Positions 28,404 through 45,234 of a stretch of 64,000 nt of DNA are shown here, one piece after another. The number at the start of each line of letters is the position of its first letter. The first letter of the stretch is position 1. The translations under genes were made by a program, and so were the position numbers. The stretch comes from Myxococcus landrumus. GTDB taxonomy: Bacteria > Myxococcota > Myxococcia > Myxococcales > Myxococcaceae. The notes beneath the pieces were generated by a model. That model worked only from the letters and a program-made list of their open reading frames with translations, made no database searches and was not told the DNA's origin. The DNA is taken from NCBI RefSeq assembly GCF_017301635.1, contig NZ_CP071091.1:3670001-3734000 (forward strand), given 5' to 3'.

Positions 28404-28851
28404 CGGTTGAAGTGCCACATCGTCACCGTCCCTGGCGCGCCGCGTCCGAGACACGGTCTCCCAAACCCGCTCCGAGTTGACCCCGTTGGAGCAATCCCGC
28501 ACTGACGGAAATTGCTGCGGGCAGGCCCACTCGGCGGCGTTCAACTCACACACGCGGCGTCATATTCCGACTCCTGGCACTTTCAGCTCACACCCGCGAC
28601 GACGCGACGCGCCAGCCCATTCCGAGTCACAAACACATATCAAAACGTAGAGCCACGCATCGCCCCATTGAAAGACATATCACTCCATAGCACCCAGACT
28701 CCGGAGCAATTGCTTGTAGCCATTCTTGACATCTCCGAGCCGCGAGAGTACCCAGACAATCACTGTTTCACCGCACCTCGAGCGAGTCACCGAGCCGTCC
28801 GGCTCGGAGGCCACGGGTGCGCGCCTGGCAGGCTTTCCCTCGGAGGCGACC
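28404..28851 (+). promoter_or_regulatory. Regulatory gap in front of the biosynthetic operon
   Basis: 448 bases, clearly AT-richer than the neighbours. TTGACA (28726-28731), an exact -35 consensus, is followed 17 bases later by TACCCA (28749-28754), a poor -10 box; GACAAT lies at 28755. This is the best promoter candidate for the operon starting at 28852. The gap also must hold the promoter of the divergent esterase-like gene. No clear operator palindrome was found. Confidence 0.4.
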
Positions 28852-29697
28852 ATGATGTTCACACGGTATTGCCGCTGCATCTTGTTCACTCCAGCCCTCG
28901 CCGTGGACCGCTTCGCCCGGGGACAGCAATCCGGTGCGGACATCGCGCTGGTCGACCTCGAGGACTCCGTGGCCGCCAATCACAAGGACACGGCGCGGCA
29001 GCAGGCGGAGGCCTTCTTCACCGCCCCGAAAGGCCCCAGCCGTCGCGCCATTCGTATCAACAGCGTCACCCGGCCCGAGGGCTTCCGGGACCTGCTCGCC
29101 CTTCGCGAGTACGCGGTCAAACCCGACGCGGTGCTGATTCCCAAGGTGGAGTCCCCCCGAGACCTGGAGATCGTCGAGCAGGTGCTCGGGCCCAGCTGCT
29201 CCCAGGTCGACCTGCTCGCCCTGGTGGAGACGCCTCGCGGGGTGGAGAACGTACACGCCATCGCCAGCGCGACGCCCCGGCTCAAGGCGCTCGTGTTCGG
29301 CTCGGCGGACTATTCCTTCAGCATCGGCGCATCCCTGTCATGGGAGCCATTGCAGTACGCCCGCGCCCGGCTCGTCACCGCCGCGCGCGCCGCCCACGTG
29401 CAAGTCGTTGACTCGCCGCTGTTCAACATGTCGGACGAGGAAGCCTTGCGCCTCGAGTGCCGGCTGGCCCGGAGCATGGGTTTCAGCGGCAAGGCCGCCG
29501 TGCATCCCCGCCAGGTGGACATCATCAATCAAGCCTTCTCCCCGGACGAACACACGCTGAGCAAGGCGCGGAAGATCGTCAAGGAAAGCCAGGCGCGCGA
29601 CTTCAACATCTGCGTGGTGGAGGGGACCATGATGGGTGCCCCGTTCGTCGAGGCGGCGAAGCGCACGCTCGAGGAGTTCGGCTCCCAAGGGGGCTGA
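28852..29697 (+). CDS. CitE-like acyl-CoA lyase (HpcH/HpaI family)
   Basis: 281 residues, first gene of the operon. It has the motifs of the citrate-lyase beta / malyl-CoA lyase family in order: LVDLEDSVAANHKDTAR, RINSVT, DAVLIPKVES, LLALVETPRGV, ALVFGSADYS, and AAVHPRQVDIINQAFSP. The metal-binding Glu and Asp and the Arg that holds the carboxylate are present; ADYS replaces the commoner EDLA or EDFA. Members cleave or form bonds between acetyl- or propionyl-CoA and a 2-oxo acid. Here it may supply an unusual short acyl unit or act on an ACP-bound chain. ATG 28852 is fixed by GGAGG six bases upstream; the open frame from 28726 begins inside the presumed promoter. Confidence 0.85.
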   Translation: MMFTRYCRCILFTPALAVDRFARGQQSGADIALVDLEDSVAANHKDTARQQAEAFFTAPKGPSRRAIRINSVTRPEGFRDLLALREYAVKPDAVLIPKVESPRDLEIVEQVLGPSCSQVDLLALVETPRGVENVHAIASATPRLKALVFGSADYSFSIGASLSWEPLQYARARLVTAARAAHVQVVDSPLFNMSDEEALRLECRLARSMGFSGKAAVHPRQVDIINQAFSPDEHTLSKARKIVKESQARDFNICVVEGTMMGAPFVEAAKRTLEEFGSQGG

Positions 29698-29745
29698 ACA
29701 CCCGGCGTGGTTCCCGTCCCCCCAATACCCCCAGGAGGAGTCCAC

Positions 29746-30978
29746 ATGGAAACGACCAACGAGCAGAGCGTCTTGGGTCCCAGGCGCTACCGCAACAACG
29801 AGAAGCTCATCGCCGTGGGAGACCGAGGCTGGCAGACGGCCAAGGACCACGGACTCATCGGCCTGCGGGTGAACTTCGAGTCGAACAACCGGCTCGTCGA
29901 CACGAAGACGGGCCACGCGTTCATGACGCTCTGCTCGTGTTCCTACCTGGGCCTCAACCACCACCCGCGCATCCTGCAGGGCTCCATCGACGCGCTCCGC
30001 GAGGCCGGCACCAACAGCCTGGCCATGTCCACGCTGCGCATCCGCCTGGACCAGATGGCGCGCATGGAGGAGGGCTTCCGGGAGCTGTACGGCTGCCCCA
30101 CCCTGCCCGGCGCCACGTGCAGCGCGCTGACCGCGGGCATCCTCCCGCTGCTCGCCTCCGGCCACGTCACCGAGGACGGCAAGCCCCGGGTGATGGTGTT
30201 CGACCGCTACTGTCACTTCTCGATGGCCTACATCAAGCCCATCTGTGGCGACGAGAGCCTGGTCCTCACCAGTCCCCACAACGACCTCAACTACCTGGAG
30301 GACGTCTGCAAGAAGTACCCCCGCGTGGCCTACGTCGCGGACGGCGCCTACTCCATGGGCGGCCTGCTGGCGCTCGAGGGCCTCTTGCAGCTCCAGGAGC
30401 GCTACGGGCTCTTCCTCTACATCGACGACTCCCACTCGCTCTCGATTGCCGGTGAGCGCGGCGAGGGCTACGTCCGCTCGCGGCTGAAGATGAACCCGCT
30501 GACGATGATTGTCGCGTCGCTGGCCAAGGCCTTCGGCAGCTCGGGCGGCATCGCCATGCTGGGCAGCGAGAAGATCTTCGACTTCCTCTACCGGAACGCG
30601 GGGCCGCTGGCCTGGTCCCAGAACCTCCAGACGCCGTCGCTGGGCGCCTCGCTCGCCAGCATCGCGCTGCACAAAACGCCGGAGCTGCGCCAGCTCCAGG
30701 ACCAGCTCCAGCGCAACATCCAAATCTTCGACAGCCGCTTCCCCTCCCCGCACGCGGGCAACGGGATGCCCATCCGCCTCATCCAGGTCGGCGAGGAGGA
30801 CCGCGCCATCCGCCTGTCCGCGGAGCTGTACCAGCGCGGCTACTACTGCTCGGCGGTGTTCTTCCCCGTCGTCGCCCGAGGCGAAGCGGGCGTGCGCGTG
30901 ATGATGCGCGCGGACATGACGGAGGAGCAGGTCCGCACGTTCTGCGACGACGTCCAGGCCATCCTCTCCCGCTTCTGA
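29746..30978 (+). CDS. Alpha-oxoamine synthase (SPT / KBL / BioF family)
   Basis: 410 residues. A PLP enzyme that joins an amino acid to an acyl thioester with loss of CO2, giving an alpha-aminoketone. The cofactor sites are visible: YIDDSHSLS with Asp227 and His230 (usually DDAHxxG), and SLAKAFGSSGG with the PLP lysine Lys261. The substrate-side segments FMTLCSCSYLGLNHHP and NSLAMSTLRIRLD match the family's start (NYLGL; GSR in most members). The TLR or SLAMST reading in place of the usual GSGGTR hints at an altered acyl or amino-acid pocket. It has AGGAGG seven bases before ATG 29746. Beside an ACP and a ketosynthase, an acyl-ACP is the likely acyl donor. It could make the amine part of the product. 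Confidence 0.9.
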   Translation: METTNEQSVLGPRRYRNNEKLIAVGDRGWQTAKDHGLIGLRVNFESNNRLVDTKTGHAFMTLCSCSYLGLNHHPRILQGSIDALREAGTNSLAMSTLRIRLDQMARMEEGFRELYGCPTLPGATCSALTAGILPLLASGHVTEDGKPRVMVFDRYCHFSMAYIKPICGDESLVLTSPHNDLNYLEDVCKKYPRVAYVADGAYSMGGLLALEGLLQLQERYGLFLYIDDSHSLSIAGERGEGYVRSRLKMNPLTMIVASLAKAFGSSGGIAMLGSEKIFDFLYRNAGPLAWSQNLQTPSLGASLASIALHKTPELRQLQDQLQRNIQIFDSRFPSPHAGNGMPIRLIQVGEEDRAIRLSAELYQRGYYCSAVFFPVVARGEAGVRVMMRADMTEEQVRTFCDDVQAILSRF

Positions 30979-31013
30979 GCGGCGCCCACCTTCAGGCCAC
31001 GAGGAGACACACC

Positions 31014-31544
31014 ATGGAGGGCACCGGAATCACCGGCTACAAACAACTGGGCTCGCAGCGCTACCGCGAGGTCCTGGGCTTCCACTTCGAGGACTTCACG
31101 GTGGGGGACGTCTTCGAGCACCGCCCCGGCCGGACGGTGACGGAGGCGGACAACGTCCTGATGAACACGCTGGCGATGAACCCGTCTCCGCTGCATCTGG
31201 ATGCCGCGTACTGCGAGCAGACGGTGTGGGGCCGGCCGCTCATCTCCAGCCTGGTGACCTTCAGCATCGTCTGCGGGATGAGCGTGCGCAGCACCAGCGG
31301 CCGGGCCACCGCCAACCTCGGCTGGGACAAGATTCGCCTCACCCACCCCATCTTCGCGGGGGACACGCTCTACGCGGAGAGCCGCATCCTCGCCAAGCGG
31401 CTGTCCTCCCACAGGCAGGGCGAGGGAATCATCACCTGCGAGACGGTGGGCCTCACCTCGAAGGGCGAGGTCTTCCTCTCCTTCGAGCGCAGCTTCCTCG
31501 TGCCCACCCGTGAGCGGGCCGTCGAGGAAAGGGCCAGGTACTGA
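31014..31544 (+). CDS. MaoC-family hydratase / dehydratase
   Basis: 176 residues, one hotdog domain. It has the MaoC signature: FEDFTVGDVFEHRPGRTVTEADNVLMNTLAMNPSPLHLDAAY split over adjoining segments, with the catalytic Asp-His pattern represented by the N-x-SPLHLD block (commonly D...NPxH), then GRPLISSLVTFSI and DKIRLTHPIFAGDTLYAESRI. It resembles mesaconyl-CoA hydratase-type and (R)-specific enoyl-CoA hydratase-type members. Pairing with a CitE-like lyase recalls the ethylmalonyl-CoA pathway, where such a hydratase and lyase act in sequence. Its substrate may be CoA- or ACP-bound. Ends 2 bases before the next gene. Confidence 0.86.
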   Translation: MEGTGITGYKQLGSQRYREVLGFHFEDFTVGDVFEHRPGRTVTEADNVLMNTLAMNPSPLHLDAAYCEQTVWGRPLISSLVTFSIVCGMSVRSTSGRATANLGWDKIRLTHPIFAGDTLYAESRILAKRLSSHRQGEGIITCETVGLTSKGEVFLSFERSFLVPTRERAVEERARY

Positions 31545-31546
31545 CC

Positions 31547-32545
31547 ATGCGCGCCGTGCTCTTCGAAGGCTCCGGGGGACCGGAGGTGGTGAAGCTGCGC
31601 GAAGTCCCCAGGCCCGTGCCCACGCGCGAGGCGCTGCTGGTGAAGGTGCATGCCACGGCGCTCAACCGCGCGGACCTGCTCCAGCGGCAGGGCGAGTACC
31701 ACGTGCCCGAAGGTCAGTCGTCCATCCCCGGCGTCGAGATTGCCGGCACCGTCGAGGCCTGGGGTGAGGACGTGAAGGGCTTCACCCGGGGGCAGCCCGT
31801 CTTCGGCGTGGTCGAAGGGGGCGGGCTCGCCGAGTACTGCCTGCTGGACCAAGGCATGGCCCTGCCCATTCCGTCGTGTTTCGACTTCGCGGAAGCGGCG
31901 GCCACCTCGGAGTCCTGCCTCACCGCGAATGAGACGCTCTTCGCGTTGGGCCATCTCCAGCGTGGGCAGGCGGTGCTCATCCACGCCGCGGCCAGCAGCA
32001 TCGGGACCACCATGGTCCAGATGGCGCGGCACATCGGCGCCTCCACGTACTGCACGGTGGGCACGGCCGCGAAGGTGGCGGCCCTGCGCGCGCTGGGCGC
32101 GGATGAGGTCTTCAACCACCGGGAGCAGGACTTCGTTCGCGAGGTCCTCCGCCTGACGCGCGGCGAGGGCGTGCCGCTGGTGATGGACTTCATCGGCGGC
32201 GCGTACCTGGAGCGCAACCTGGCCGTGCTGGGACACGAGGGGATTCTCGTCCTCGTCGGGCTGCTGGACGGCATGTCGACGCAGGTGGACCTGCTGCGGG
32301 TCGTCCAGCGCCGCCTCCAGCTCAAGGGGTCATCCCTGCGGCTGAGGCCCTTGAAGGAGAAGCGCGAGGTGAACGCGCGCTTTCGCCAGCGGTGGATGGA
32401 GGTGCTCGCCCGAGGCGAGCTGCGCCCCGTCATCCACGCCCGCTACCCGCTGGAGGACGTGCAGTCGGCGCTCGCAGTGATGGAAGCCAACCGCAACATC
32501 GGAAAGCTCGTGCTCACTTTGGAAGGGAACACTCGCCATGCATGA
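31547..32545 (+). CDS. Zinc-free quinone-oxidoreductase-like reductase (PIG3 type)
   Basis: 332 residues, medium-chain dehydrogenase/reductase superfamily without zinc ligands. It shows the PIG3/quinone-oxidoreductase start (MRAVLFEGSGGPEVVKLREVP), LNRADLLQRQGEYHVP, and the NADPH-binding turn HAAASSIGTTMVQMARHIGA. It uses NADPH to reduce an activated double bond, so it could act as the enoyl reductase of the pathway. Its stop overlaps the ACP start by 8 bases, which links it closely to ACP-bound intermediates. Confidence in the family is high; the substrate is inferred from context. Confidence 0.9.
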   Translation: MRAVLFEGSGGPEVVKLREVPRPVPTREALLVKVHATALNRADLLQRQGEYHVPEGQSSIPGVEIAGTVEAWGEDVKGFTRGQPVFGVVEGGGLAEYCLLDQGMALPIPSCFDFAEAAATSESCLTANETLFALGHLQRGQAVLIHAAASSIGTTMVQMARHIGASTYCTVGTAAKVAALRALGADEVFNHREQDFVREVLRLTRGEGVPLVMDFIGGAYLERNLAVLGHEGILVLVGLLDGMSTQVDLLRVVQRRLQLKGSSLRLRPLKEKREVNARFRQRWMEVLARGELRPVIHARYPLEDVQSALAVMEANRNIGKLVLTLEGNTRHA

Positions 32546-32810
32546 AGAGCTGACGGAGAGCATCAAGAAGATTCTCATCAACAACCTGTTCGTCGAACTG
32601 CCCCCCGAGCAGATTGGCGTGGATGACGGCCTGCAGTCCGTCATCGGCCTGGACTCGGTGGGGTTCCTCGAGCTGCGCGTCCTGTGCGAGGACCAGTTCA
32701 AGGTCCGCATCTCCGACGAGGACTTCAACACGGAGAACTTCCGGACGGTGAACCAGATCGTGTCCCTCATCACGGGGCTGAAGACCTCGTCGCAGGGAGG
32801 CGCGTGGTGA
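32538..32810 (+). CDS. Stand-alone acyl carrier protein
   Basis: 90 residues, acidic and helical. The phosphopantetheine site is GLDSVGFLEL with Ser40; the DSV-x-FLEL form is typical of specialised ACPs in secondary metabolism rather than of the housekeeping AcpP (DSLDTVELVM). It probably carries the growing acyl chain for the ketosynthase and reducing enzymes encoded around it. It overlaps the reductase gene by 8 bases and ends in a GTGA overlap with the aminotransferase gene. A phosphopantetheinyl transferase must be encoded elsewhere. Confidence 0.92.
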   Translation: MHEELTESIKKILINNLFVELPPEQIGVDDGLQSVIGLDSVGFLELRVLCEDQFKVRISDEDFNTENFRTVNQIVSLITGLKTSSQGGAW

Positions 32811-34201
32811 GGCCGCCCGCGCCGGGAGGGAGGCTGGAGCCGGGGGACCTCGACCGGCTGCGCGCGGGGCAGGCCCTTCAGATGGACCACTACGGCGGCG
32901 GGCGTCTGCCTTTCGCCTGTGTGCAGGCGAAGGGGCTCGTCCAGCACATGGTTCCGCTGGACGGTGACGACGCGGGCCAGGTGCTGGAGGTGATGGACGC
33001 CAGCGGCGGCTACGCCAGCGCGTGCCTGGGCGCCGCCCATCCCTGCCTCCAGCCCGCGTTCCGCGATGGACTGGAGCGGGGCTACGTCACCGATGAGCTG
33101 GGCTCGCTGGAGCGGACGCTGCTGCTGGAGGAGTTGTTCGGCCCCGGTGGTCGCTGGGCGGACCGCTTCCCGGGCACCGCCTACCACGCCAGTGGTCGCA
33201 ACTCCGGCTCCGAGGGATTGGAGCTCGCCCTGCGGCTGGCGCTGGAGTCTGGCTTCGACCGGCGACGGCTGTCGGTGAAGTCGGGCCGCGAGGCGCGTCG
33301 CACCGTCCTCGCGTTCGAGGGCGCGTGGCATGGCTGGACGGGTGGGCTGGTGCCGCTGCTCAACCGCCGGCACTACCGCCTGGGCCTGCCTCCGCTGTCC
33401 ACCGAGCCGCCGTATCACCTGGACGTGGCGTTCCTCCCCTTCGGCGAGCCGGAGCTGCTGGAGCGCTTCTTCGCCGAGCAGGGCTCGAAGCTGTCCGCGG
33501 TCATCGTCGAGCCCATCCAGGGCGACGCGGGCATCCTCGTCCCACCGCCGGGCTACCTGCGGCGCCTGGCCGCGCTGTGCCGCGAGCACGACGTGCTCCT
33601 CATCGCGGACGAGGTGCTCACCTTCGCGAAGACGGGGCGGTTCTTCGCCATGACGGATGAGGAGGGGCCCATCCCCACCGACGTCACCGTCATCGGCAAG
33701 AGCCTGGGCATGGGCGCGGTCTCCACGTCCATGGTCATCGCGCGGCGCGAGCTGTCCGTGCGCTCCAGCGGCGCGGTGTCCACGTCGGACCTGCGTCCCC
33801 TCACCTGCTCGCTGATGCGCTCTGGCCTCCGATATCTCTCGGAGGAGCGCCTCATCGAGCGCGCCGGCCCCCTGGGCGCGGAGCTTCGCGAGCGGCTGCG
33901 CAAGGACGTGGTGGAGGCCTTCCCGGAGCTGTTCCTGGAGGTCCGCGGCCTGGGCTACATGAACGGCATCGAGCTGACCGAGCGCGCGTCCGTGGGGCTC
34001 ACCGCGCTTCGCCGCCGGCTGCTCGAGGCGGGCGTCTTCGTGGAGTTCATGGCCGGCGCGGGCAGGCGCACCCATGGCCTGCGCTACATGTTCCCCGCCA
34101 TGCGCATCGCCCCGCCGCTCATCGCGGGCGAAGACGACCTGCGACGCATCGTCGAGCGCATCCGCGAGGGGACCCGGAGGTTCGTGGAGGCGGGGCGATG
34201 A
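32807..34201 (+). CDS. Class III PLP aminotransferase / aminomutase-like enzyme
   Basis: 464 residues, fold type I, related to glutamate-1-semialdehyde aminomutase and the beta-aminotransferases of assembly lines. Motifs: HASGRNSGSEGLELALRLA, FEGAWHGWTGG, VIVEPIQGDAGI, LIADEVLTF-AKTGRFFA, and IGKSLGMGA with the PLP lysine near residue 298. The usual GG after the Lys segment is GM, and RF in TGRFFA is standard. It likely installs an amino group on a keto- or aldehyde-bearing chain. The GTG at 32807 (or 32804) has GGAGG six bases ahead and a GTGA overlap with the ACP stop; the longer open frame antiparallel in phase with the ACP gene is not coding. Confidence 0.88.
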   Translation: MRPPAPGGRLEPGDLDRLRAGQALQMDHYGGGRLPFACVQAKGLVQHMVPLDGDDAGQVLEVMDASGGYASACLGAAHPCLQPAFRDGLERGYVTDELGSLERTLLLEELFGPGGRWADRFPGTAYHASGRNSGSEGLELALRLALESGFDRRRLSVKSGREARRTVLAFEGAWHGWTGGLVPLLNRRHYRLGLPPLSTEPPYHLDVAFLPFGEPELLERFFAEQGSKLSAVIVEPIQGDAGILVPPPGYLRRLAALCREHDVLLIADEVLTFAKTGRFFAMTDEEGPIPTDVTVIGKSLGMGAVSTSMVIARRELSVRSSGAVSTSDLRPLTCSLMRSGLRYLSEERLIERAGPLGAELRERLRKDVVEAFPELFLEVRGLGYMNGIELTERASVGLTALRRRLLEAGVFVEFMAGAGRRTHGLRYMFPAMRIAPPLIAGEDDLRRIVERIREGTRRFVEAGR

Positions 34202-34632
34202 TGGCCACGCTCGTCGTACCGCCTCGGCGTCACCGCGTGGAGCACGTCGACACCGATGCGTCGGGCGTCGTCCACTTCTCGCGCTACGCCTCGCTGCTGG
34301 AGACCGCGGCGCTGGAGGAGCTCGACCGGCGGGGCTCCGGACTCGGGCTGCTCGAAGGACAGGGGCTGGACCTGCGGGTGCGGGAGCTGCGCATCCGCTA
34401 CCGCGATGCCGCGCGCTTCCAGGACTGGCTCCGGATGGAAGCACGCCTGGAGCACGTGGGCCCCGCGAGTCTCAAGTTGGGCGTCGCAATCTATCGCGAG
34501 GGCACCGCGCAGGAGCCGGTGCTGCTCGCCTCTGGAAGTCTGGACATGGCTGTCGTCAACCGAGAGAGCGGAGAACCCACATGCATTCCACCGACACTCA
34601 GCACCGCCCTCGCGCGGCCCCCCTCCCCCTGA
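34198..34632 (+). CDS. Hotdog-fold acyl thioesterase (4HBT family)
   Basis: 144 residues. The 4-hydroxybenzoyl-CoA thioesterase pattern is clear near the start: EHVDTDASGVVHFSRY, with catalytic Asp about residue 20, followed by LLETAALEELDRRG and a later LRIRYRDAARFQDWLRME. Members hydrolyse acyl-CoA or acyl-ACP. Here it may free an acyl chain from the ACP for activation by the adenylating enzyme, or remove stalled chains. ATGATGA overlap with the aminotransferase stop. The last 30 residues overlap the start of the FabZ-like gene by 52 bases and look less ordered, so the true C-terminal end may add little to the fold. Confidence 0.85.
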   Translation: MMATLVVPPRRHRVEHVDTDASGVVHFSRYASLLETAALEELDRRGSGLGLLEGQGLDLRVRELRIRYRDAARFQDWLRMEARLEHVGPASLKLGVAIYREGTAQEPVLLASGSLDMAVVNRESGEPTCIPPTLSTALARPPSP

Positions 34633-35111
34633 ACAAGCCGGAGCGCGAGCCCAAGCCCCTGGGCTTCACGGCGCTGCGCCAGTGGCTCCGCCACCGGCAC
34701 CCGATGATTCTCCTGGACCGCATCGTCGACCACGAGCCCGGGAAGTTCCTGGAGGCCCTCATCTCCATCTCGGGGAACCTGGACTGCATCGCGGGACACT
34801 TCCCCGAGCGCGCCATCTACCCCGGCAGCCATCTCATCCAAGCCTTCGCCCAGGCGGGAATCATCCTCTACCAGATGAGCACCTCGATGCTGGCCGAGGA
34901 TGAGCTGACCTTGGTGGGCTCGGTGGAGAGCCGCTTCCTCCAGGTCGTCGTGCCGGGTGACCAGGTGTTGCTGCGGCTCCAGGTGAGCCGACTGGCCGGA
35001 GGGCTGTTCATCTACACGGGCAAGGCGATGGTGGGGAACCGGCGCGTGGCGGCGTTCCGCGCCAGCCTCATCCGCGCCAAGGTTTCGGAGCTGGGCTCGC
35101 CGCTATGGTAG
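34581..35111 (+). CDS. FabZ-like hotdog protein with altered active site
   Basis: 176 residues. It aligns by eye with 3-hydroxyacyl-ACP dehydratase FabZ: RHRHPMILLDRI (His38 is the catalytic His), FLEALISISGN, and GHFPERAIYPGSHLIQAFAQAG. In FabZ the last block reads PG-x-x-x-x-EAMAQ with a catalytic Glu; here that position is Gln87. A normal His with Gln for Glu suggests a lost or changed dehydratase activity, for example substrate binding or thioesterase-like chemistry. A MaoC hydratase in the same operon could do any true dehydration. The ATG at 34581 lies inside the thioesterase gene; it ends with a 7-base overlap with the ketosynthase gene. Confidence 0.85.
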   Translation: MHSTDTQHRPRAAPLPLNKPEREPKPLGFTALRQWLRHRHPMILLDRIVDHEPGKFLEALISISGNLDCIAGHFPERAIYPGSHLIQAFAQAGIILYQMSTSMLAEDELTLVGSVESRFLQVVVPGDQVLLRLQVSRLAGGLFIYTGKAMVGNRRVAAFRASLIRAKVSELGSPLW

Positions 35112-36226
35112 CGCCCGTCGCGGTGACCGGGGCCGCGTGGAGCACGGCCCTGGGTCACGGACTCGATGAGGTGTGGCGGCGGCTGCTCGCCGGTGAGCAC
35201 GGCTTCGTCGAGGTGGAGTCTCCGCATCGGCTTCGCAACCTGCTGGCCGCGGCCATCCCCGCGCGGGAGGACAGCCCCGCGCGGAGGCTGCGGCGGCTGG
35301 CGGTGGAGACACTTCACCGCGCATTGGAGGAAGCCGGGCTGACCGCGCACGGAGACACCACGCGCTTCGTGCTGGGCACGAGCCTGGGCGCGTGGCTCGA
35401 CGACGAACAGGAGCGGGGAGCGCCGCTCCACACCTGGGCGGACGAGGTGGCTCGCGAGGTGGGCGCGCGCGAGGCACCCGTCAGTCTCTCCACCGCATGC
35501 TCCTCCGGCTCCGACGCCATCCTGGTCGGCGCGGAGCTCATCCGCTCCGGCGCGGCGGAGGTGTGCGTCTGCGCCGGCGTGGATGTGCTCACACCGAGCA
35601 AGCGGCTGGCGCACTCGGCGCTGTCCACCATGTCCCCCACCCGGTCACGTGCCTTCGATGTTCGACATGACGGCATGCTGCTGGGTGAGGGCGCGGGGGT
35701 CCTCGTGTTGGAGTCCATGGCGCATGCGAAGGCACGGTCCGCGCCGCTGCTCGCGCTCTTCCGGGGAGCGGGTTCCGCCAACGACGCGGCGAGCATGACG
35801 TCTCCGGACCCAGCCGCGCTGGGTGCGCGGCTGGCGATGGAGCGTGCGCTCTCCGACGCGGGGCTCGTGCCCGGAGACATCGGGGTCATCAATGCGCATG
35901 GCTCGGCCACTCCCGCCAATGACCGCGCGGAGGCGGAGGCCTTTCGGGCCACGTTCGGGCCTGGCGTGCGCCCGTGGGTCTTCGCGACGAAGGGCGCGTT
36001 CGGGCACACGCTGGGGGCCACGGGAGCGATGGAGGCGATTGCCCTCATCCTCGCGCTTCGCGAAGGCGTGGTGCCGCCCGTCGTGGGCCTGGAGCAACCC
36101 GCTCAGGACTTCCCCTGCTCCCTCCCCGTGGGTCGGCCCGTGCGGCATGACGAGCGGCTGGGCCTGAGCCTCACGCTCGGGTTCGGAGGGTTCGATACCG
36201 CACTCGTCTTCGAGGTCCCGCGATGA
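35105..36226 (+). CDS. Beta-ketoacyl-ACP synthase (KAS I/II type)
   Basis: 373 residues, somewhat shorter than FabF (about 410). All catalytic residues are visible: Cys132 in LSTACSSGSDA, His265 in VINAHGSATPAND, Lys296 and His301 in TKGAFGHTLGATGAMEA, and the C-terminal GFGGFDTALVF. It should elongate acyl chains on the operon's ACP with malonyl units. It is most like ketosynthases of aryl-polyene-type and other dedicated type II systems. The next gene encodes a truncated relative, and the 4-base overlap (ATGA) suggests the two proteins form a pair, as ketosynthase and chain-length factor do in type II systems. Confidence 0.92.
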   Translation: MVAPVAVTGAAWSTALGHGLDEVWRRLLAGEHGFVEVESPHRLRNLLAAAIPAREDSPARRLRRLAVETLHRALEEAGLTAHGDTTRFVLGTSLGAWLDDEQERGAPLHTWADEVAREVGAREAPVSLSTACSSGSDAILVGAELIRSGAAEVCVCAGVDVLTPSKRLAHSALSTMSPTRSRAFDVRHDGMLLGEGAGVLVLESMAHAKARSAPLLALFRGAGSANDAASMTSPDPAALGARLAMERALSDAGLVPGDIGVINAHGSATPANDRAEAEAFRATFGPGVRPWVFATKGAFGHTLGATGAMEAIALILALREGVVPPVVGLEQPAQDFPCSLPVGRPVRHDERLGLSLTLGFGGFDTALVFEVPR

Positions 36227-36795
36227 AGGCGCCTCCTCTCATCCTCCGTGGCAGTGCGCGCTCGCACAGCGGCGCGCCCAATCCGTATGCGGCACGGGTG
36301 AAGACCACCGTGCGCTACGCGGACCCGATGGCATGGGCGCTCACGCTCGCGATTGGCGAGGCCACCGAGCCCTTGGGCGAAGACTTCCGCGCGGCCGTGG
36401 CCCGGTGCTCACTCATCCAGGTGGGCTCCGAGGCCCCACCCGAGGCCATGTCCCGGGCCGCGACGGAAGCCCTGCGCGGCTTCGCCTCCGCCATCCGGTT
36501 TCCCGCCGCCACGCCGAGCGCGCCCGCGGGCCTCGCCTGCATCGTCCATGGCCTGCGCGGCCCCACGCTCGCGCTGACCATGCCCGTGACGGAAGGCGCC
36601 CGCATCGCCCTGGCGCTCAGTACCGCGTGGCTCGCGCGCGGTGTCGTCGACTACGCGCTCATCGGGACAGCAGCCTCGGTTCCCGGTGGCGAACCTCGCG
36701 CCGCATGCGCGGTCCTCTCGCGGGGCGAAGGCCCGACGGTGGACGAGGCGCTGCTGGTGAAGACCCTTCTCCCCGAGCGGAGCTCCCATGCCTGA
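36223..36795 (+). CDS. Truncated ketosynthase-like protein without catalytic residues
   Basis: 190 residues. The middle and end match the N-terminal half of a thiolase-fold ketosynthase: FPAATPSAPAGLACIVHGLRGPTLALTMPVTEGARIALALSTAWLARGVVDYALIGTAA, read in two pieces, matches the block that in active enzymes runs LP-N-x-x-AG-x-x-A-x-x-x-GL-x-GP-x-x-T-x-x-x-ACSSG. The nucleophilic Cys is absent (TMPVTEG instead), and the half that holds the His and Lys is missing. A pseudo-ketosynthase acting as structural partner or chain-length factor of the preceding ketosynthase is the natural inference. Overlaps both neighbours by 4 and 8 bases. Confidence 0.75.
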   Translation: MKAPPLILRGSARSHSGAPNPYAARVKTTVRYADPMAWALTLAIGEATEPLGEDFRAAVARCSLIQVGSEAPPEAMSRAATEALRGFASAIRFPAATPSAPAGLACIVHGLRGPTLALTMPVTEGARIALALSTAWLARGVVDYALIGTAASVPGGEPRAACAVLSRGEGPTVDEALLVKTLLPERSSHA

Positions 36796-38203
36796 AGCCA
36801 CCCCGGACCTCGCGGGCCTCTCCCTGCCCTCCATCCAATCCTTCCTGGACCGCGTCCGGGACCTCACCACGGAATCCGGCGGCGCCCCCGAGAAGCACTC
36901 GGTCGAGCAGCTCGCGTCGTCGTGGAAGGACCACGGCCTGCGACCAGGCGACGTCGTCCTGCTGGCCCTGCCGAACGGAGCGGAGCTGCTGGCCCAGGTC
37001 TTCGCCATCCTCGCCGCGCGCGGAGTCCCCGCGCTGGTCTCTCCCTCCGCGCCCACCTTGCGGCAACAAGCACTGGTCGAGGCCCTGCCGGCGCGTGCGC
37101 TCGTCGCCATGCGACGCCCCGTCCCCCAGGCCAAGGAAGTGGAGCGCTTCACACTGGGCCGGGCCGAAGTGGCCCTGTTCCCGGAGACACAACCTCCAGG
37201 CGCACAGCCAGGAGAGATGGTGCTGCTCACCTCGGGCACTTCCGGCTTCGCCAGTGGTTGCGTGTTCGACCTCGAGGCGCTCTTCCGGAACGCGAACCGC
37301 CATGCGGACGCCGTGGGTCTTCGCGCGGGAGACCGCGTGTTGGTCAACCTGCCGCTCTACTACTCGTACTCCATGGTGGCCCAAGCCTTCGCCTCCCTGC
37401 TGCGAGGCGCGGACCTGGTCATCAGCGGCCCCCCCTTCCAACCCGCCGCCTACCTGCGCCTCCTGGCCGAGCAAGGCGTCACCGTGTCCGCGCTGACGCC
37501 CCTGCTGGTGCGCGCCCTCCTCCAGCAGGGCGGAGTCTTCCCGGAAGCAACGCGCTCCCTCGGCGTCGGCGGAGACGTCCTCTCACCCGAGCACGTGGAG
37601 CAACTGCTGCGCCTGCGCCCTCGCGGGGAGCTGTTCCTCACGTATGGCCTGTCCGAAGCCGGCCCCCGCGTCGCGACGCTCGCGGCCCATGCCGAGCCCG
37701 CCCACCGCCACGCCTCCGTGGGCCTTCCGCTCCCGGGGACACAAGTCTCCCTCGTGCCGCGCGCGCCCGGTGGACAGAAGGAGCTGCTGGTGTCCTCGGA
37801 CACGCTGATGAAGCGGCGCATCGGCATGGTCGAGGGAGAGAAGCTCCACGCCTGGCGCGGCCCGCGCTTGCTGGCCACGGGCGACATCTTCGACATCGAC
37901 GCGGAGGGCTACCTGTACTTCCAGGGACGGCTCTCCGACTTCCTCGTCCGAGGCAGCGAGAAGATCTGCATGGCCTCCGTGCGGCGGCTGGCCACCACGC
38001 TCCCCGGTGTCCTCACCGCACGCACCCAAGTCGTCCGAGGAGCGGAGGGCGACGACTACGAGATGATTCTCACCGTGGCCGATGAGGGGCGCCCGCCCGA
38101 ACACGTCTCCGAGGCGCTCTCACGACTCCTGCGGCTCGCCGAACGTCCACGGCGCATCCAGGTCGTCTCCGCCGACGTCAACACCGCCGCGCTGCACAAG
38201 TGA
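36788..38203 (+). CDS. Stand-alone acyl- or aryl-adenylating enzyme (AMP-ligase)
   Basis: 471 residues, ANL superfamily. The ATP loop reads LLTSGTSGFASG (residues about 146-157), lacking the final Lys of the usual TSGTTGxPKG. Later motifs are LTYGLSEAGPRVA (A5), LLATGDIFDIDAEGYLYFQGR (A7 and A8), LVRGSEKI (A8 loop), and the terminal ADVNTAALHK. The last residue, Lys471, sits where the catalytic A10 lysine is expected, so the C-terminal domain is complete but ends exactly there. It probably activates a fatty or aryl acid and loads it on the ACP or on the first carrier domain of the NRPS. GTGA overlap with the NRPS gene. Confidence 0.88.
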   Translation: MPEATPDLAGLSLPSIQSFLDRVRDLTTESGGAPEKHSVEQLASSWKDHGLRPGDVVLLALPNGAELLAQVFAILAARGVPALVSPSAPTLRQQALVEALPARALVAMRRPVPQAKEVERFTLGRAEVALFPETQPPGAQPGEMVLLTSGTSGFASGCVFDLEALFRNANRHADAVGLRAGDRVLVNLPLYYSYSMVAQAFASLLRGADLVISGPPFQPAAYLRLLAEQGVTVSALTPLLVRALLQQGGVFPEATRSLGVGGDVLSPEHVEQLLRLRPRGELFLTYGLSEAGPRVATLAAHAEPAHRHASVGLPLPGTQVSLVPRAPGGQKELLVSSDTLMKRRIGMVEGEKLHAWRGPRLLATGDIFDIDAEGYLYFQGRLSDFLVRGSEKICMASVRRLATTLPGVLTARTQVVRGAEGDDYEMILTVADEGRPPEHVSEALSRLLRLAERPRRIQVVSADVNTAALHK

Positions 38204-41200
38204 GCACCCTCTTCCCAACCTTGAAGGACCTCCCGATGACGCTCTCATCCCCGACATCCAGCTTCCAGCCCCCGCGCAACCGGACGGAAGAGCTCCTGTG
38301 TGAGCTCTGGAGCGTGCTGCTGGAGGTCGAGCGCGTGGGCATCCACGACGACTTCTTCCAGCTCGGTGGCCACTCCCTCATCGCCACGCAGCTCGTCTCC
38401 CGGCTCAACGAGCTGTTCCACCTGCGCTTTCCCCTGCCCACCATCTTCGACGCGCCCACCATCGCGGAGCTGGCGGCGGCCATCGAGTCCGCGCGCGGCG
38501 CGGAGACAGCGAGCCAGGACCTCCCGCTGCGCCCCGGCACGCTCGGCAACGACGTCCCGCTCTCCTTCGCCCAAGAGCGCCTCTGGTTCATGGAGCAGCT
38601 CTACCCAGGGACGGCCACCTACAACATCCCCGTCTTCTACCGCATCACCTCGCCGCTCGATGTCGGTGTGCTCCAGCGCGCGCTCGACGAGGTGCTCCTG
38701 CGTCACGAATCGCTCCGGACCACGTTCGTCTCCACGGACTCGGGCCCCGTCGCGCGCATCGCGCCACCGCGCGCCTTCCCCCTGACGTTCGTCGACCTGA
38801 GCCACCTCCCCGCGGACGCTCGCGACGAGGAGGCCTCGCGCCTGGCCACGGAGCACGCGAGCCAGCCCATCGACGCGCGCACGGGCCCCATCATCCAAGG
38901 CACCTTGCTGAAGGTCGGCGCGAGGGACCACCGGCTCCTCCTCGTGGTCCATCACATCGTGTCCGATGGCTGGTCCCTCGGCGTCCTCATGCGCGAGCTC
39001 CGGACGCTCTACTCGGACTTCGCCGCGGGCCAGCCTTCGTCACTGCCCCCACTCCCGCTGAGATACGCGGACTTCGCCGCATGGCAGCGCCAGTGGCTGC
39101 CCGTGCAGACCCAGGAGCGGCTCCTCCCCTACTGGCGCAAGCGGCTCGCCGGAGCCCCCACGCTCCTCGCGCTCCCCGCGGACCGTCCACGACAACAGGT
39201 CCAGACCTTCAAGGGCACACGCCGGACGTTCCACATCCCCGAGGAGACCGCGCTGGCCATCGACGCGCTCTGCCGCAAGGAGCGCACGACGCTCTTCATG
39301 ACGCTCCTCGCGGGCTTCTGCGCCGTCCTCCATCGCTACTCCGGGCAGGACGACATCGTGGTCGGCTCGCCCATCTCGGGACGCATCCGCCCGGAGGTGG
39401 AGGGGCTCATCGGCTTCTTCGTCAACACGCTCGTCCTGCGCAATGACTTGTCGGGAGACCCTCGCTTCGTCGACCTCCTCACCCGCGTGCGCGAAGTCAC
39501 CCTGGGCGCGTTCGCGCACCAGGAGCTGCCCTTCGAGAAGCTGGTCGAAGCGCTCCAGCCGGAGCGCACGCTGAGCCATGCGCAGTTCATCCAGGTGATG
39601 TTCGTTCTGCAGCGCTCTCCCACACTGGAGGTGGCGCCATCCTCGGCGCTCCAGCTCGCCGCCGCGCCGGAGTCCTGGGAGGTGAACACCGGGACGGCGA
39701 AGGGCGACCTCCTCCTCTACATGGCGAGGACTCCCGAGGGCCTCCGCGCCACCTTCGAGTACGACCACCACCTCTTCGAGGACGCCCGCATCGAGCGCAT
39801 GGCCGGACACCTCCAGGTGCTGCTCGAGGCCGTGGCCGCGGACCCGTTCCAGCGGCTCTCCGCGCTCCCGCTGCTCACGTCCACCGAGCGCAACGTGCTG
39901 CTGCGCGAGTGGAACAGCGCCACCACCGACTACCCCCGGGACGTCTGCGTCCACGAGCTGTTCTCCCGCCAGGCCGCTCGGACCCCGGAGGCCATCGCCG
40001 TTTCCTATGGCGCCAACAGCATCACCTACGGGGAGCTCGACGCCCGCTCCAATCGGCTCGCCCGTCACCTGAAGTCGCTGGGTGTCGGCCCCGAGGTCCT
40101 CGTGGGCCTGTGCGTCGAGCGCTCCGTGGACCTCATCATCAGCATGCTCGGCATCCTCAAGGCAGGGGGCGCCTATCTCCCGCTGGAGGCCGCCTACCCC
40201 GCAGAGCGCCTCGCCTTCATGCTCCAGGATGCGCGTGTCAGCCTCCTGCTCGTCCACGCCGCGAAGCTCCAGCAGTTGCCGCCGTTCCCGGGCCCCGTCG
40301 TCCGGGTCGACACGGACCAGGACGCCATCGCGCGGAACTCCGATCTTCCTCTCGCGTCCACCGCCTGCCCCGACAACCTCGCCTACGTCATCTACACGTC
40401 CGGCTCCACGGGCAGACCCAAGGGCAGCGCGATTGTCCACCGCGGAATCGCCGCCCTGCTCTTCCACACGAACTTCGTCCGCTTCTCCCCCACGGACCGC
40501 GTCGCCCAGGCGTCCAACGCCTCCTTCGACCCGAGCACGTTTGAAATCTGGGGAGCGCTGCTGAACGGCGCGCGCCTCGTCGGAATCACGGCCGACCCGG
40601 CGCGCGAGCCCCAGGAGCTGGCCGCGCAAATCCAGAACGAGGCCGTCAGCATCATGTTCGTCACCACCGCCGTGCTTCACCTGCTGGCGCGCCAGGTGCC
40701 GGATGCCTTCCGGAATGTGCACACCCTCGTCTTCGGAGGCGAGGCCGCGGACCCGCTGGCGTTGCGTGAAGTGCTCCGGCGCGGGCCGCCGCGACGGCTG
40801 CTCAACGGCTATGGCCCCACGGAGTGCACCGTCTTCTCCACCTCGCACGCCATCGACGCGCCTCCATCACTTGGTCAGCCCGTGCCCATCGGCCGTCCCA
40901 TCACCAACGGCCCGGTCTACCTGCTGGACAAGCACTTGCGGCCCGTGCCCATCGGGGTCCCCGGTGAGCTCTACGTCGCGGGTGAGCGGCTGGGGCGCGG
41001 CTACTTCAACCGCCCGGAGCTCACCGCGCGGACGTACGTCCCGGACCCGTTCAGCACGAAGCCCGGAGCCCGCCTCTACAAGACGGGAGACCTGGGCCGC
41101 TACCTGGCCAACGGCCGCATCGAGTACCTGGGCCGCGTGGACCTCCAGGTGAAGATTCGCGGCTTCCGGGTGGAGCTGGGAGAGATTGAAGAGTCGCTGC

Positions 41201-43062
41201 GCCTGCATCCAGGGGTGGAGGACTGCTCCGTGGTGGCGGTGGAGGTGGGCGGAGACCGGAAGCTCGCGGCCTACTTCGTCGCGCGAGGCAAGGCACCCGC
41301 CCAGTCGGTGCTGCGCAACTGGCTGCGAGAGCGCCTGCCAGAGCACATGGTGCCCTCATCCTTCACGCCCCTCCCCGCGCTGCCACTGACCCCCAACGGC
41401 AAGGTGGACCGCCGCGCCCTGCCGTCTCCCGAGCAGCCCCAGGGAGACACGTCCACCTATCAGGCTCCGCGGACGTTCACGGAAGAGACCCTGTGCCGCA
41501 TGTGGGGTGCACTGCTGCAGATGGAGCGCGTGGGCATCCACGACAACTTCTTCCACCTCGGCGGGCATTCGCTCCTGGCCACACAGGTCGTGTCACGCAT
41601 CCGCGCGGAGCTCGGCGTCGAAGTCTCCCTGCGCACGTTGTTCGCGGGCCCGACGGTGGCCGACCTGGCGCGGCACATCTCTCGCGCGGAGCCATCCGTG
41701 GTGCTCGCGCGTCCGGTGCCTCCGCTGCGCCGGGTGCCACGCGATGGAGCGATGCGAGTGTCCTTCGCCCAGGAGCGCCTGTGGCGCTTCTTCCAGCGGG
41801 CACCCGAGTCCAGCGCGTACAACATTCCCCGCGCGTTCCGGTTGAAGGGCCGGGTGGACCCGAAGCACCTCGAGTCCGCGTTCCAGGCGCTCATCGCCCG
41901 GCACGAGACGCTGCGAGTCACCTACGGCGAAGAAGACGGCGTGCCCGTGCAGCGCGTCCAGGCGACGGCCGACTTCCAGCTCCGCGAGGTGGACCTGAGA
42001 GGAAGGGCGGACCGCGAGGAGGAGGCGACGCGCGAGATGTTGAGGTCCGCGCTGCTCCCGTTCGACCTGTCTCGGGGGCCGCTGATGCATGGGGCGCTGC
42101 TCCGCCTGGAGGACGAGGAGTACGTGCTGTTCTTCTGCATGCACCACATCACGGCGGATGGCTGGTCCATGGGGCTCACCTCACGAGAGCTGGGTCGGCT
42201 CTACACGGCCATCGCCTCGGGGGCGGACGCGGGACTGGCGCCGCTGGCCATCCAGTATCCCGACTACGCGGCGTGGCAGCGCGAGTGGCTGTCCGGTGAG
42301 GAGCTCAAGGAGCGGCTCAGCTTCTGGAAGAAGTCGCTCGCCGGAGCCCCCACGCAGTTGAACATCCCCACGGACCGGCCTCGGCCCGCGGTGCGCACGT
42401 TCAACGGCATCCAACGACATGTCGCGCTGGGTCAGGAGCGCACTCGGGCGTTGCACGCGCTCTGCCGTCAGGAGCAGGTGACGCCCTTCATGGCGTTGCT
42501 GTCGGTGTTCGGCATCGCGCTGGCGCGGCGTGCGGGACAGGAGGAGGTGGTCATCGGCTCGCCCATCGCGAACCGGCTCCGCCCGGAGCTGGAGCCGCTC
42601 ATCGGCATGTTCGTCAACGGGTTGTGCCTGCGCGTCAACCTCCGCGGGGCCCCCGCCTTCCGTGAGCTGCTCCAGCGGGTCCGAGAAGAGACGCTGGCGG
42701 GGTTTGCCCACCAGGAGGTCCCCATCGACCAGGTGGTGACGTCGCTCGGGGTGGAGCTGCCCGTGAATCGCTCGCCCGTGTTCCAGGCGATGTTCGTCCT
42801 GCAGAACGCGCCCACCGCGCCGCTGGAGATTCCAGGGGTCTCCGTCACTCCCGTGGCGGTCGACCGAGGCTCCGTCACCTACGAGCTCACCCTGGCGCTG
42901 ACGGAGACACCGGAGGGCTTCGCTGGCGTGCTGGAGGTCAATACGGACCTGTTCAAGCCGGAGATGGCGGAGCGGCTGCACTCGGAGCTGGAGGCGTTGC
43001 TGGACGCCGTGCTGGCGAATCCAGACCTGCCCGTGGGTTTGGAGACACGGCCCGCTCGATGA
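38200..43062 (+). CDS. Non-ribosomal peptide synthetase, T-C-A-T-C
   Basis: 1620 residues. Carrier domain 1 at about 25-100 (LGGHSL, Ser59); condensation domain 1 at about 118-560 (HHIVSDG from His251); adenylation domain at about 568-1060 (YTSGSTGRPKG near 731, FDPSTFE near 776, NGYGPTECT, YKTGDLGRY, NGKVDRRAL); carrier 2 (LGGHSL, Ser1124); condensation domain 2 at about 1180-1610 (HHITADG from His1315). There is no epimerase and no thioesterase. By-eye pocket residues read D P F F V G G V F K, close to codes for branched aliphatic residues (Val/Ile) apart from Pro at the second place. An N-terminal carrier implies loading in trans; a final C domain implies release onto an amine. The start is GTG 38200 (GTGA overlap) or ATG 38236. 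Confidence 0.95.
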   Translation: MSTLFPTLKDLPMTLSSPTSSFQPPRNRTEELLCELWSVLLEVERVGIHDDFFQLGGHSLIATQLVSRLNELFHLRFPLPTIFDAPTIAELAAAIESARGAETASQDLPLRPGTLGNDVPLSFAQERLWFMEQLYPGTATYNIPVFYRITSPLDVGVLQRALDEVLLRHESLRTTFVSTDSGPVARIAPPRAFPLTFVDLSHLPADARDEEASRLATEHASQPIDARTGPIIQGTLLKVGARDHRLLLVVHHIVSDGWSLGVLMRELRTLYSDFAAGQPSSLPPLPLRYADFAAWQRQWLPVQTQERLLPYWRKRLAGAPTLLALPADRPRQQVQTFKGTRRTFHIPEETALAIDALCRKERTTLFMTLLAGFCAVLHRYSGQDDIVVGSPISGRIRPEVEGLIGFFVNTLVLRNDLSGDPRFVDLLTRVREVTLGAFAHQELPFEKLVEALQPERTLSHAQFIQVMFVLQRSPTLEVAPSSALQLAAAPESWEVNTGTAKGDLLLYMARTPEGLRATFEYDHHLFEDARIERMAGHLQVLLEAVAADPFQRLSALPLLTSTERNVLLREWNSATTDYPRDVCVHELFSRQAARTPEAIAVSYGANSITYGELDARSNRLARHLKSLGVGPEVLVGLCVERSVDLIISMLGILKAGGAYLPLEAAYPAERLAFMLQDARVSLLLVHAAKLQQLPPFPGPVVRVDTDQDAIARNSDLPLASTACPDNLAYVIYTSGSTGRPKGSAIVHRGIAALLFHTNFVRFSPTDRVAQASNASFDPSTFEIWGALLNGARLVGITADPAREPQELAAQIQNEAVSIMFVTTAVLHLLARQVPDAFRNVHTLVFGGEAADPLALREVLRRGPPRRLLNGYGPTECTVFSTSHAIDAPPSLGQPVPIGRPITNGPVYLLDKHLRPVPIGVPGELYVAGERLGRGYFNRPELTARTYVPDPFSTKPGARLYKTGDLGRYLANGRIEYLGRVDLQVKIRGFRVELGEIEESLRLHPGVEDCSVVAVEVGGDRKLAAYFVARGKAPAQSVLRNWLRERLPEHMVPSSFTPLPALPLTPNGKVDRRALPSPEQPQGDTSTYQAPRTFTEETLCRMWGALLQMERVGIHDNFFHLGGHSLLATQVVSRIRAELGVEVSLRTLFAGPTVADLARHISRAEPSVVLARPVPPLRRVPRDGAMRVSFAQERLWRFFQRAPESSAYNIPRAFRLKGRVDPKHLESAFQALIARHETLRVTYGEEDGVPVQRVQATADFQLREVDLRGRADREEEATREMLRSALLPFDLSRGPLMHGALLRLEDEEYVLFFCMHHITADGWSMGLTSRELGRLYTAIASGADAGLAPLAIQYPDYAAWQREWLSGEELKERLSFWKKSLAGAPTQLNIPTDRPRPAVRTFNGIQRHVALGQERTRALHALCRQEQVTPFMALLSVFGIALARRAGQEEVVIGSPIANRLRPELEPLIGMFVNGLCLRVNLRGAPAFRELLQRVREETLAGFAHQEVPIDQVVTSLGVELPVNRSPVFQAMFVLQNAPTAPLEIPGVSVTPVAVDRGSVTYELTLALTETPEGFAGVLEVNTDLFKPEMAERLHSELEALLDAVLANPDLPVGLETRPAR

Positions 43063-45187: not shown

Positions 45188-45234
45188 CCGGACATCCTCG
45201 CATGGCGATGTTTCAGACACCCAGCAAAGCGTCG

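Follow-up and report, generated by a model that had tools for sequence, protein, structure and literature searches.

A Myxococcus operon that combines a cispentacin cassette and a ketomemicin-type module with a small nonribosomal peptide synthetase

Introduction

Cispentacin is an antifungal amino acid that mimics proline, and a ketomethylene is a protease-resistant mimic of the peptide bond. The ketomemicin (ktm) gene cluster and its chemistry were reportedly described by Kawata in 2017. Here we analyze a 64,000-nucleotide stretch of DNA (the window) from Myxococcus landrumus, a predatory soil bacterium. The window corresponds to positions 3,670,001 to 3,734,000 (G000:C1:3670001-3734000) of a 10.37 Mb genome on a single contig, NZ_CP071091.1. 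A twelve-gene operon at window positions 28852-43062 carries relatives of both systems together with a nonribosomal peptide synthetase (NRPS) gene.

Cispentacin, a cyclic beta-amino acid, is made from 2-oxoglutarate by the seven genes amcB-H (Hibi 2023; PMC10698177, excerpt). Streptomyces albus made cispentacin from these genes, and the pathway was reconstituted in vitro, with activities that load 2-oxoglutarate, elongate it by one C2 unit with ring closure, decarboxylate, aminate and finally release the product (PMC10698177, excerpt). In the amipurimycin cluster amcB-H stand with nucleoside genes, and the coronafacic acid genes cfa1-5 are counterparts of amcB, E, F, G and H (PMC10698177, excerpt). 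The same excerpt lists Stigmatella and Corallococcus among the carriers of cispentacin-type genes, so the cassette part of the present operon is known.

The ktm cluster encodes an aldolase, a pyridoxal phosphate (PLP)-dependent C-acyltransferase, a dehydratase, an ATP-grasp ligase, an amidinotransferase and a dehydrogenase (PMC11943689, excerpt). In this excerpt the ketomemicins are described as NRPS-independent, and only ketomemicins and arphamenines are named as natural ketomethylene pseudopeptides. We found no paper in the open-access literature, the supplements of PMC10698177 aside, that joins cispentacin with a ketomethylene or either one with a myxobacterial NRPS product. No paper on clusters of an alpha-oxoamine synthase (AOS) with a citrate lyase-like gene was found in the open-access literature either.

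Results and Discussion

Operon layout

In this operon two modules, each already known, are newly combined with a small NRPS (Table 1). We think it probable, from gene content and conservation, that it makes a short peptide-like compound in which the NRPS joins cispentacin as a cap to a ketomethylene pseudopeptide. Such a product would probably be an antibiotic or enzyme inhibitor of a new, peptide-like kind.

All twelve open reading frames lie on the plus strand and are tightly packed. Between the first four genes lie 48, 35 and 2 bases, and each later gene, starting with amcB, overlaps the one before it, by 8, 4, 4, 52, 7, 4, 8 and 4 bases in turn. This spacing is compatible with a single transcript in this genome. 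The original prediction for this stretch, which was made from the letters alone, had described a twelve-gene operon with one transcript, and its reading as one dedicated biosynthetic operon is supported. Its enzyme classes were right at the superfamily level, with four details corrected: the "FabZ-like" gene matches the AmcE decarboxylase, the "pseudo-ketosynthase" the AmcG cyclization factor, the "AMP-ligase" the AmcH 2-oxoglutaryl-ACP ligase and the class III aminotransferase AmcC. The prediction could not tie the operon to any known pathway; in fact seven of its twelve genes are amcB-H in order and three are close relatives of ktmA, ktmB and ktmC.

Table 1. Genes of the operon (window positions) and aminoacyl-tRNA editing genes tested in related loci (positions within each locus). 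ACP, acyl carrier protein; MDR, medium-chain dehydrogenase/reductase; T, thiolation; C, condensation; A, adenylation domain.
Gene or feature	Position	Strand	Match or basis
ktmA-like aldolase (CitE / HpcH-HpaI), 281 aa	28852-29697	+	PF03328 127.5 bits; 55.2% to L176
ktmB-like AOS (PLP C-acyltransferase), 410 aa	29746-30978	+	NF005697 504 bits, cut-off 342; 62.0% to L176
ktmC-like MaoC dehydratase, 176 aa	31014-31544	+	PF01575, PF19315; 61.5% to L176
MDR reductase (PIG3), ktmF place, 332 aa	31547-32545	+	TIGR02824 352.9 bits, cut-off 296.8
amcB ACP	32538-32810	+	NF058660 108.8 bits, cut-off 80; LDS motif
amcC class III omega-aminotransferase	32807-34201	+	NF058664 728.9 bits, cut-off 600
amcD-position 4HBT thioesterase	34198-34632	+	PF03061 47.6 bits; amcD place and order
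amcE hot-dog-fold decarboxylase	34581-35111	+	NF058663 245.9 bits, cut-off 140
amcF ketosynthase	35105-36226	+	NF058662 522.8 bits, cut-off 325; TACSSG and two His motifs
amcG cyclization factor (ketosynthase partner), 190 aa	36223-36795	+	NF058659 93.5 bits, cut-off 80
amcH 2-oxoglutaryl-ACP ligase	36788-38203	+	NF058661 561.2 bits, cut-off 370
NRPS T-C-A-T-C, 1620 aa	38200-43062	+	Pfam domains, motifs; A code DPFFVGGVFK
Editing gene, L040	14336-14791	-	PF04073
Editing gene, L031	5462-5938	+	PF04073
Editing gene, L036	4842-5387	+	PF04073
Editing gene, L035	13994-14449	-	PF04073

Cispentacin cassette

Six of the seven cassette genes (amcB, C, E, F, G and H) exceed the cut-offs of NCBIfam equivalog models. 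No NCBIfam model for amcD came up, and this gene is called from its 4HBT domain and its position only. The observed order B-C-D-E-F-G-H is that published for the amipurimycin cluster (PMC10698177, excerpt), from which the locus differs in having ktm-like genes and an NRPS in one operon with the cassette, in place of nucleoside genes. Compared with cfa1-5, amcC and amcD are present and the operon has no type I polyketide synthase.

The LDS motif of the ACP and the TACSSG and His motifs of the ketosynthase (KS) were all found in the cassette proteins, as was a GHFPE histidine, taken as the catalytic His of AmcE. A Lys motif was found in AmcC, presumably its catalytic motif. The ACP, KS and AmcE residues were matched to those in PMC10698177 (excerpt) by motif, not by alignment to the Amc proteins.

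To model AmcG, an alignment of 12 sequences was used and gave a mean pLDDT of 82; a single-sequence model was poor (mean pLDDT 42.7) and was not used. All 50 Foldseek matches listed for the model have the ketosynthase/thiolase fold, with chains of the ishigamide KS and chain length factor at ranks 2 and 3. The best E value was 7e-6 at a TM score of about 0.5, and the root-mean-square deviation of about 10-14 Å means likeness at the fold level only. The predicted fold is in line with the published role of AmcG as a cyclization factor. On the family matches, genes 5-11 are assigned as a cispentacin cassette, for whose homologues the chemistry is published, and not as a fatty-acyl line. In one related locus (L054, 8163-8411) the amcE match covers only 47% of the length, possibly due to a frameshift or an assembly error.

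Ketomemicin-type module

A scan with the AOS beyond the myxobacteria returned genes of Lentzea (58% identity) and of an Aminicenantes metagenome-assembled genome (53%), with CitE and MaoC genes adjoining both. A search of 397 genomes of Lentzea's order yielded a ktm-type reference, locus L176 of genome G1131, a ketomemicin-type cluster probably from Salinispora tropica. L176 holds CitE, AOS and MaoC genes together with genes for an MDR dehydrogenase and an ATP-grasp ligase of the PGM1 type (PF18604, PF18105). On its opposite strand lies a candidate amidinotransferase with no Pfam or NCBIfam match, which has relatives in the ktm-like loci L177 (35%), L181 and L184 (52-55%).

The aldolase, C-acyltransferase and dehydratase of the window are close to those of the ktm type and stand in the same order, and from their identities of 55-62% a ketomethylene pseudodipeptide is expected. 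By analogy with the published ktm gene roles, genes 1-4 correspond to ktmA-B-C-F and should make such a pseudodipeptide. The MDR reductase is the weakest match of the module, with 27.9% identity to the L176 dehydrogenase and 49% to a counterpart in L069; it belongs to another MDR subfamily. When the ATP-grasp ligase and the amidinotransferase candidate of L176 were used in tblastn, neither gave a match in the window at E 1e-5, and the place of the ketomemicin ligase is taken here by the NRPS. The earlier statement that two PLP enzymes make an amine or aminoketone holds in part, as a PLP enzyme of the aminoketone-making kind is present.

The ATG at 29746 assigned as the AOS start agrees with the starts in seven relatives. 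The aldolase tree, of 24 rows, groups the myxobacterial, Lentzea and ktm-type genes in a single clade of 12 rows with support of 96/96. The AOS tree, of 41 rows, places them next to one another around an open fork. We inspected 35 AOS loci outside the myxobacterial amc loci. CitE and MaoC were both present in 20, and the 15 others include all ten at or below 32% AOS identity.

Family NF005697 (PRK07505) was rejected as a ktmB label because it is also matched above cut-off in other neighbourhoods (L107, L108, L123-L127), which hold no CitE or MaoC gene. By eye, these actinobacterial neighbourhoods appeared chorismate/para-aminobenzoate-like. Alb29 of the albogrisin pathway (PMC11906848, excerpt) is the closest solved AOS relative (285.7 bits), and its use of L-glutamate is not transferable. 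The AOS matched 167 plasmid records; among four regions inspected, only L159 has CitE and MaoC genes. More distant loci with AOS, CitE and MaoC genes (AOS 39-52%) were seen in actinobacteria and on a Rhizobium plasmid (L175, L178-L180, L182, L106, L159), and in L106 an ornithine-cyclodeaminase-family gene adjoins the AOS.

NRPS architecture and A-domain code

The NRPS has two HHxxxDG motifs, the last C domain reading HHITADG, and no thioesterase domain by Pfam. The terminal C domain could release the chain onto the amine of the pseudodipeptide. The earlier idea that the NRPS joins the parts is retained to this extent, that the enzyme ends in a C domain able to join building blocks.

The T-C-A-T-C form is found in twelve members of the genus, the window included. 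In Archangium (L040, L042) the form is C-A-T-C-A-T-C, with a first C motif of HHIISDV or HHIIADV instead of HHxxxDG. The only Corallococcus gene read whole (L052, 2356 aa) partly retains the first C domain, and three other Corallococcus open frames of 2361-2364 aa fit the same form. In view of these longer enzymes, the orphan first T domain of the window looks like a remnant left after loss of a C-A pair.

The code DPFFVGGVFK is present in both modules of four Corallococcus-genus loci (L032, L034, L052, L054), one A domain having Ile for Val. In Archangium L040 and L042 the second A domain has DPFFVGGVFK, and the first has DPFFFGGVFK (L040, by eye). The genome of the window has 105 A-domain matches, of which 30 were read and 75 were not; 24 gave a code and 6 were unaligned and left out. 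Among these 24 codes, DPFFVGGVFK occurs only in the window NRPS. The closest paralogs by identity among those read (52-54%) have the codes DAFFLGVTFK and DALWLGGTFK. Four A domains with DAFFLG(V/A)TFK, closest paralogs at 52-54%, belong to one NRPS about 90 kb from the operon (G000:C1:3801678-3811989).

A second ktm-like locus was found in the same genome (G000:C1:1396096-1403315; L188 13097-19901 and L189 1-1316). Here an NRPS of T-A-T-C form directly precedes AOS, CitE, MaoC and MDR genes, which are 49%, 43%, 59% and 50% identical to those of the window, and amc genes are absent. The code of this NRPS, DVQFVAQVVK, we take to be Pro-like. The locus supports a recurring design of a C-ending NRPS with a ktm module, and it shows that such a module can do without cispentacin. 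Within the family, AOS genes of the second kind (46-57% identity) are frequent; of four such loci inspected, L188 and L197 have CitE, MaoC and MDR genes, and L195 and L196 do not.

Co-occurrence in relatives

AmcG scored above cut-off in 26 of 195 Myxococcota genomes, all from one family. For the A domain, we used the 96 genomes of this family, defined its type by at least 66% identity and scored no more than 32 A-domain and 18 AmcG candidates per genome. The type was found in 24 of the 96 genomes, all 24 being amcG-positive, and in none of the 70 amcG-negatives. This association had a Fisher p of 1.2e-20, phylogeny ignored, and permutation within genera reached it in 0 of 200000 trials. A close ktm AOS (at least 75% identity) was found in 21 family genomes, again all amcG-positive. 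In three genomes (G073, G074, G100) the A-domain type lies on the amc contig without a close AOS; G073 and G074 have AOS genes of 51% identity on other contigs. The codes read, from G073 and G100, were DPFFVGGVFK or DPFFIGGVFK. Since the type was found only in amcG-positive genomes, three of them without a close ktm AOS, the A domain may activate cispentacin itself and not the one aliphatic amino acid of the original prediction. This is the simplest reading of the co-occurrence, and we consider it somewhat favoured; alternatively, the substrate may be a residue that usually accompanies cispentacin.

We fetched 25 amc loci besides the window. The full set stands in one stretch in 19 of them, and in three of these the NRPS gene runs off the end of the stretch or contig. 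In a 20th locus (L037 with L198) the set spans two contigs, and no CitE gene was seen. In these 20 loci with ktm-like genes and amcB-H, the NRPS is co-directional in 11 and opposed, facing the operon, in 9. Thus the single transcript claimed in the original prediction fits the gaps and overlaps here and is not universal. The conserved combination is shared by Myxococcus, Pyxidicoccus, Corallococcus and Archangium, and also by Lentzea, where ATP-grasp ligases lie close to it. Among named organisms, close relatives of the AOS occur in Myxococcus vastator, in two Pyxidicoccus, in several Corallococcus and in Archangium violaceum. A record titled Comamonas sp. KCTC 72670 (L057, BNCN01000003.1), a public label that looks wrong, has an AOS with 92% identity to that of the window.

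In Lentzea xinjiangensis (L068/L102/L103) a region of about 10 kb includes both amcB-H and the ktm-like trio. In L103/L068 the trio and an MDR gene adjoin amcB, C, E, F, G and H, all above cut-off. This MDR protein is 55% identical to that of L176. The region differs from the window in having two PGM1-type ATP-grasp ligases and an NRPS of C-A-T-C-A-T form with a thioesterase-like end (by eye). It also holds MbtH and nearby genes presumably of the hydroxyphenylglycine type, and the L176 amidinotransferase candidate had no match in it. The pair of modules thus occurs in two phyla, and the ligation enzymes found nearby differ between them.

tRNA-editing gene

Many myxobacterial relatives differ from the amipurimycin cassette in an added aminoacyl-tRNA editing gene of 150-180 aa, which directly precedes amcB in 12 of the 25 amc loci. 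It matches PF04073 with 105-110 bits in the four loci tested (Table 1), and the protein resembles trans-editing enzymes of the YbaK/ProX kind. The gene is present in three loci without ktm genes and so goes with cispentacin. PMC5877770 (excerpt) depicts cispentacin next to proline and links it to the transport of proline. Self-resistance to cispentacin is therefore a possible role for the editing gene in the carrier loci. It was found in none of 11 loci of the window's genus and in neither G073 nor G074, and the window itself gave no convincing match. The genome of the window has three PF04073 loci, the best at most 37% identical to the cluster-borne genes. Thus the editing gene cannot be the defence of the strain that carries the window, unless one of these genomic PF04073 genes serves.

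Proposed pathway

In the proposed pathway, AmcH would load 2-oxoglutarate onto the carrier AmcB, AmcF-AmcG would extend it by one C2 unit with closure to a five-membered ring, and AmcE would decarboxylate the cyclized intermediate. The ring would be saturated by a reductase, which is FabI in the published system and possibly the adjacent MDR enzyme here. AmcC would then aminate the product, and AmcD would release cispentacin.

For the second module, the aldolase-to-AOS steps follow the step-by-step pseudodipeptide chemistry reportedly worked out for ketomemicin. The CitE-like aldolase would join an alpha-keto acid and an acyl-CoA, and dehydration by MaoC and reduction by the MDR enzyme would give an alkylsuccinyl-CoA-type thioester. 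The AOS would condense this thioester with an amino acid under loss of CO2, giving a pseudodipeptide with -CO-CH2- replacing -CO-NH-. The NRPS would load one or two residues, most likely cispentacin on its A-T pair and perhaps also on the orphan first T. Its terminal C domain would transfer the chain onto the pseudodipeptide's free amine.

A wider proposal, which we put forward tentatively and with more doubt than the product itself, is that these loci define the first NRPS-built ketomethylene family. In it DPFF(V/I)GGVFK would activate cispentacin, one or two units would cap the isostere, tRNA trans-editing would give protection outside Myxococcus, and the two modules would have been combined at least twice, in Myxococcota with an NRPS and in Lentzea with ATP-grasp ligases. 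If true, it would extend ketomethylene pseudopeptides to NRPS assembly and supply a candidate code by which A domains select a cyclic beta-amino acid, usable for building rigid peptides. It would also point to tRNA editing as a way for producers to withstand an antifungal that mimics proline. An operon without a recognised product now has a testable structure. The metabolomics target would be the residue mass of cispentacin, 111.068 and isobaric with that of pipecolate, beside a ketone isostere, and strains with the operon can be matched to strains without it.

Alternative readings

Several observations weigh against a cispentacin-capped pseudopeptide. The first T domain is not paired with an A domain, the code DPFFVGGVFK resembles the aliphatic codes of its paralogs, and DALWIGGTFK is listed among Leu/Ile/Val codes (PMC12283262, excerpt). 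Two amcG-positive genomes (G065, G097) do not have the A-domain type, and in G084, of the Corallococcus genus, a T-C-A-T-C copy with DPFFVGGVFK (L194 8149-13059, contig G084:C3) lies away from the amc contig. The MDR gene belongs to the PIG3 family and shares just 28% identity with the ktm-type dehydrogenase. The AOS is a member of a broad family, and the 15 of 35 loci without CitE and MaoC include L195 and L196 at 55-56% identity. AmcD, the enzyme that frees cispentacin, is retained, and amcB-H occur without CitE, AOS and MaoC in 5 of the 25 fetched loci (L031, L035, L036, L049, L051).

One alternative is that the A domain takes a Val/Ile-like residue and that cispentacin enters on the first T, from AmcB or in trans, giving a cispentacinyl-aliphatic-pseudodipeptide. 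The unpaired first T and the likeness of the code to those of the closest paralogs agree with this. However, nearly the same code stands in both modules in Archangium and Corallococcus, and in G073 and G100, which have no close ktm synthase, the A-domain type still goes with amc. We regard this alternative as conceivable and rather unlikely.

The operon might instead have two products, free cispentacin from amcB-H and a separate pseudopeptide of ordinary amino acids from the ktm-like genes and the NRPS, co-inherited for joint action or co-regulation. The retained AmcD-type hydrolase is consistent with this. Because amcB-H occur without ktm genes in the five loci above and a ktm-NRPS locus without amc is present in the same genome, the two parts need not share a product. 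Two products remain the less credible option, since the A-domain type was found only in amcG-positive genomes, including the three without a close ktm synthase, and both gene sets stand side by side in Lentzea too. We judge them unlikely.

CitE, MaoC and AOS could also form an itaconate- or 5-aminolevulinate-type module that makes a small aminoketone and no dipeptide isostere. The best NCBIfam models are indeed RipC (241 bits) and RipB (209.1 bits) of itaconate degradation, and the AOS matches the 5-aminolevulinate synthase model TIGR01821 (91.3 bits). All three scores are far under the cut-offs of 375, 340 and 338.55 bits, on which the itaconate and the C5N/5-aminolevulinate readings were rejected, and the trio agrees with the ktm-type cluster in identity and order. 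This makes such a module very improbable.

The original prediction, a type II fatty-acyl line that makes an acyl chain and, with an amine, a lipoamide-like product, had the ACP, ketosynthase, FabZ-like and thioesterase genes in its favour and is almost certainly wrong, since all but the thioesterase exceed cispentacin-specific equivalog cut-offs, the published cassette activities yield cispentacin instead, and no ketoreductase family was matched among the twelve genes (Pfam, NCBIfam).

Neighbouring genes

Two downstream genes (43113-44288 and 45154-46038) were not counted as parts of the operon because they have no family match and few of the fetched stretches have them. On the other side, an erythromycin-esterase-family gene on the minus strand (window 27162-28553) adjoins the operon; among the fetched stretches only L039, L048 and L050 share it.

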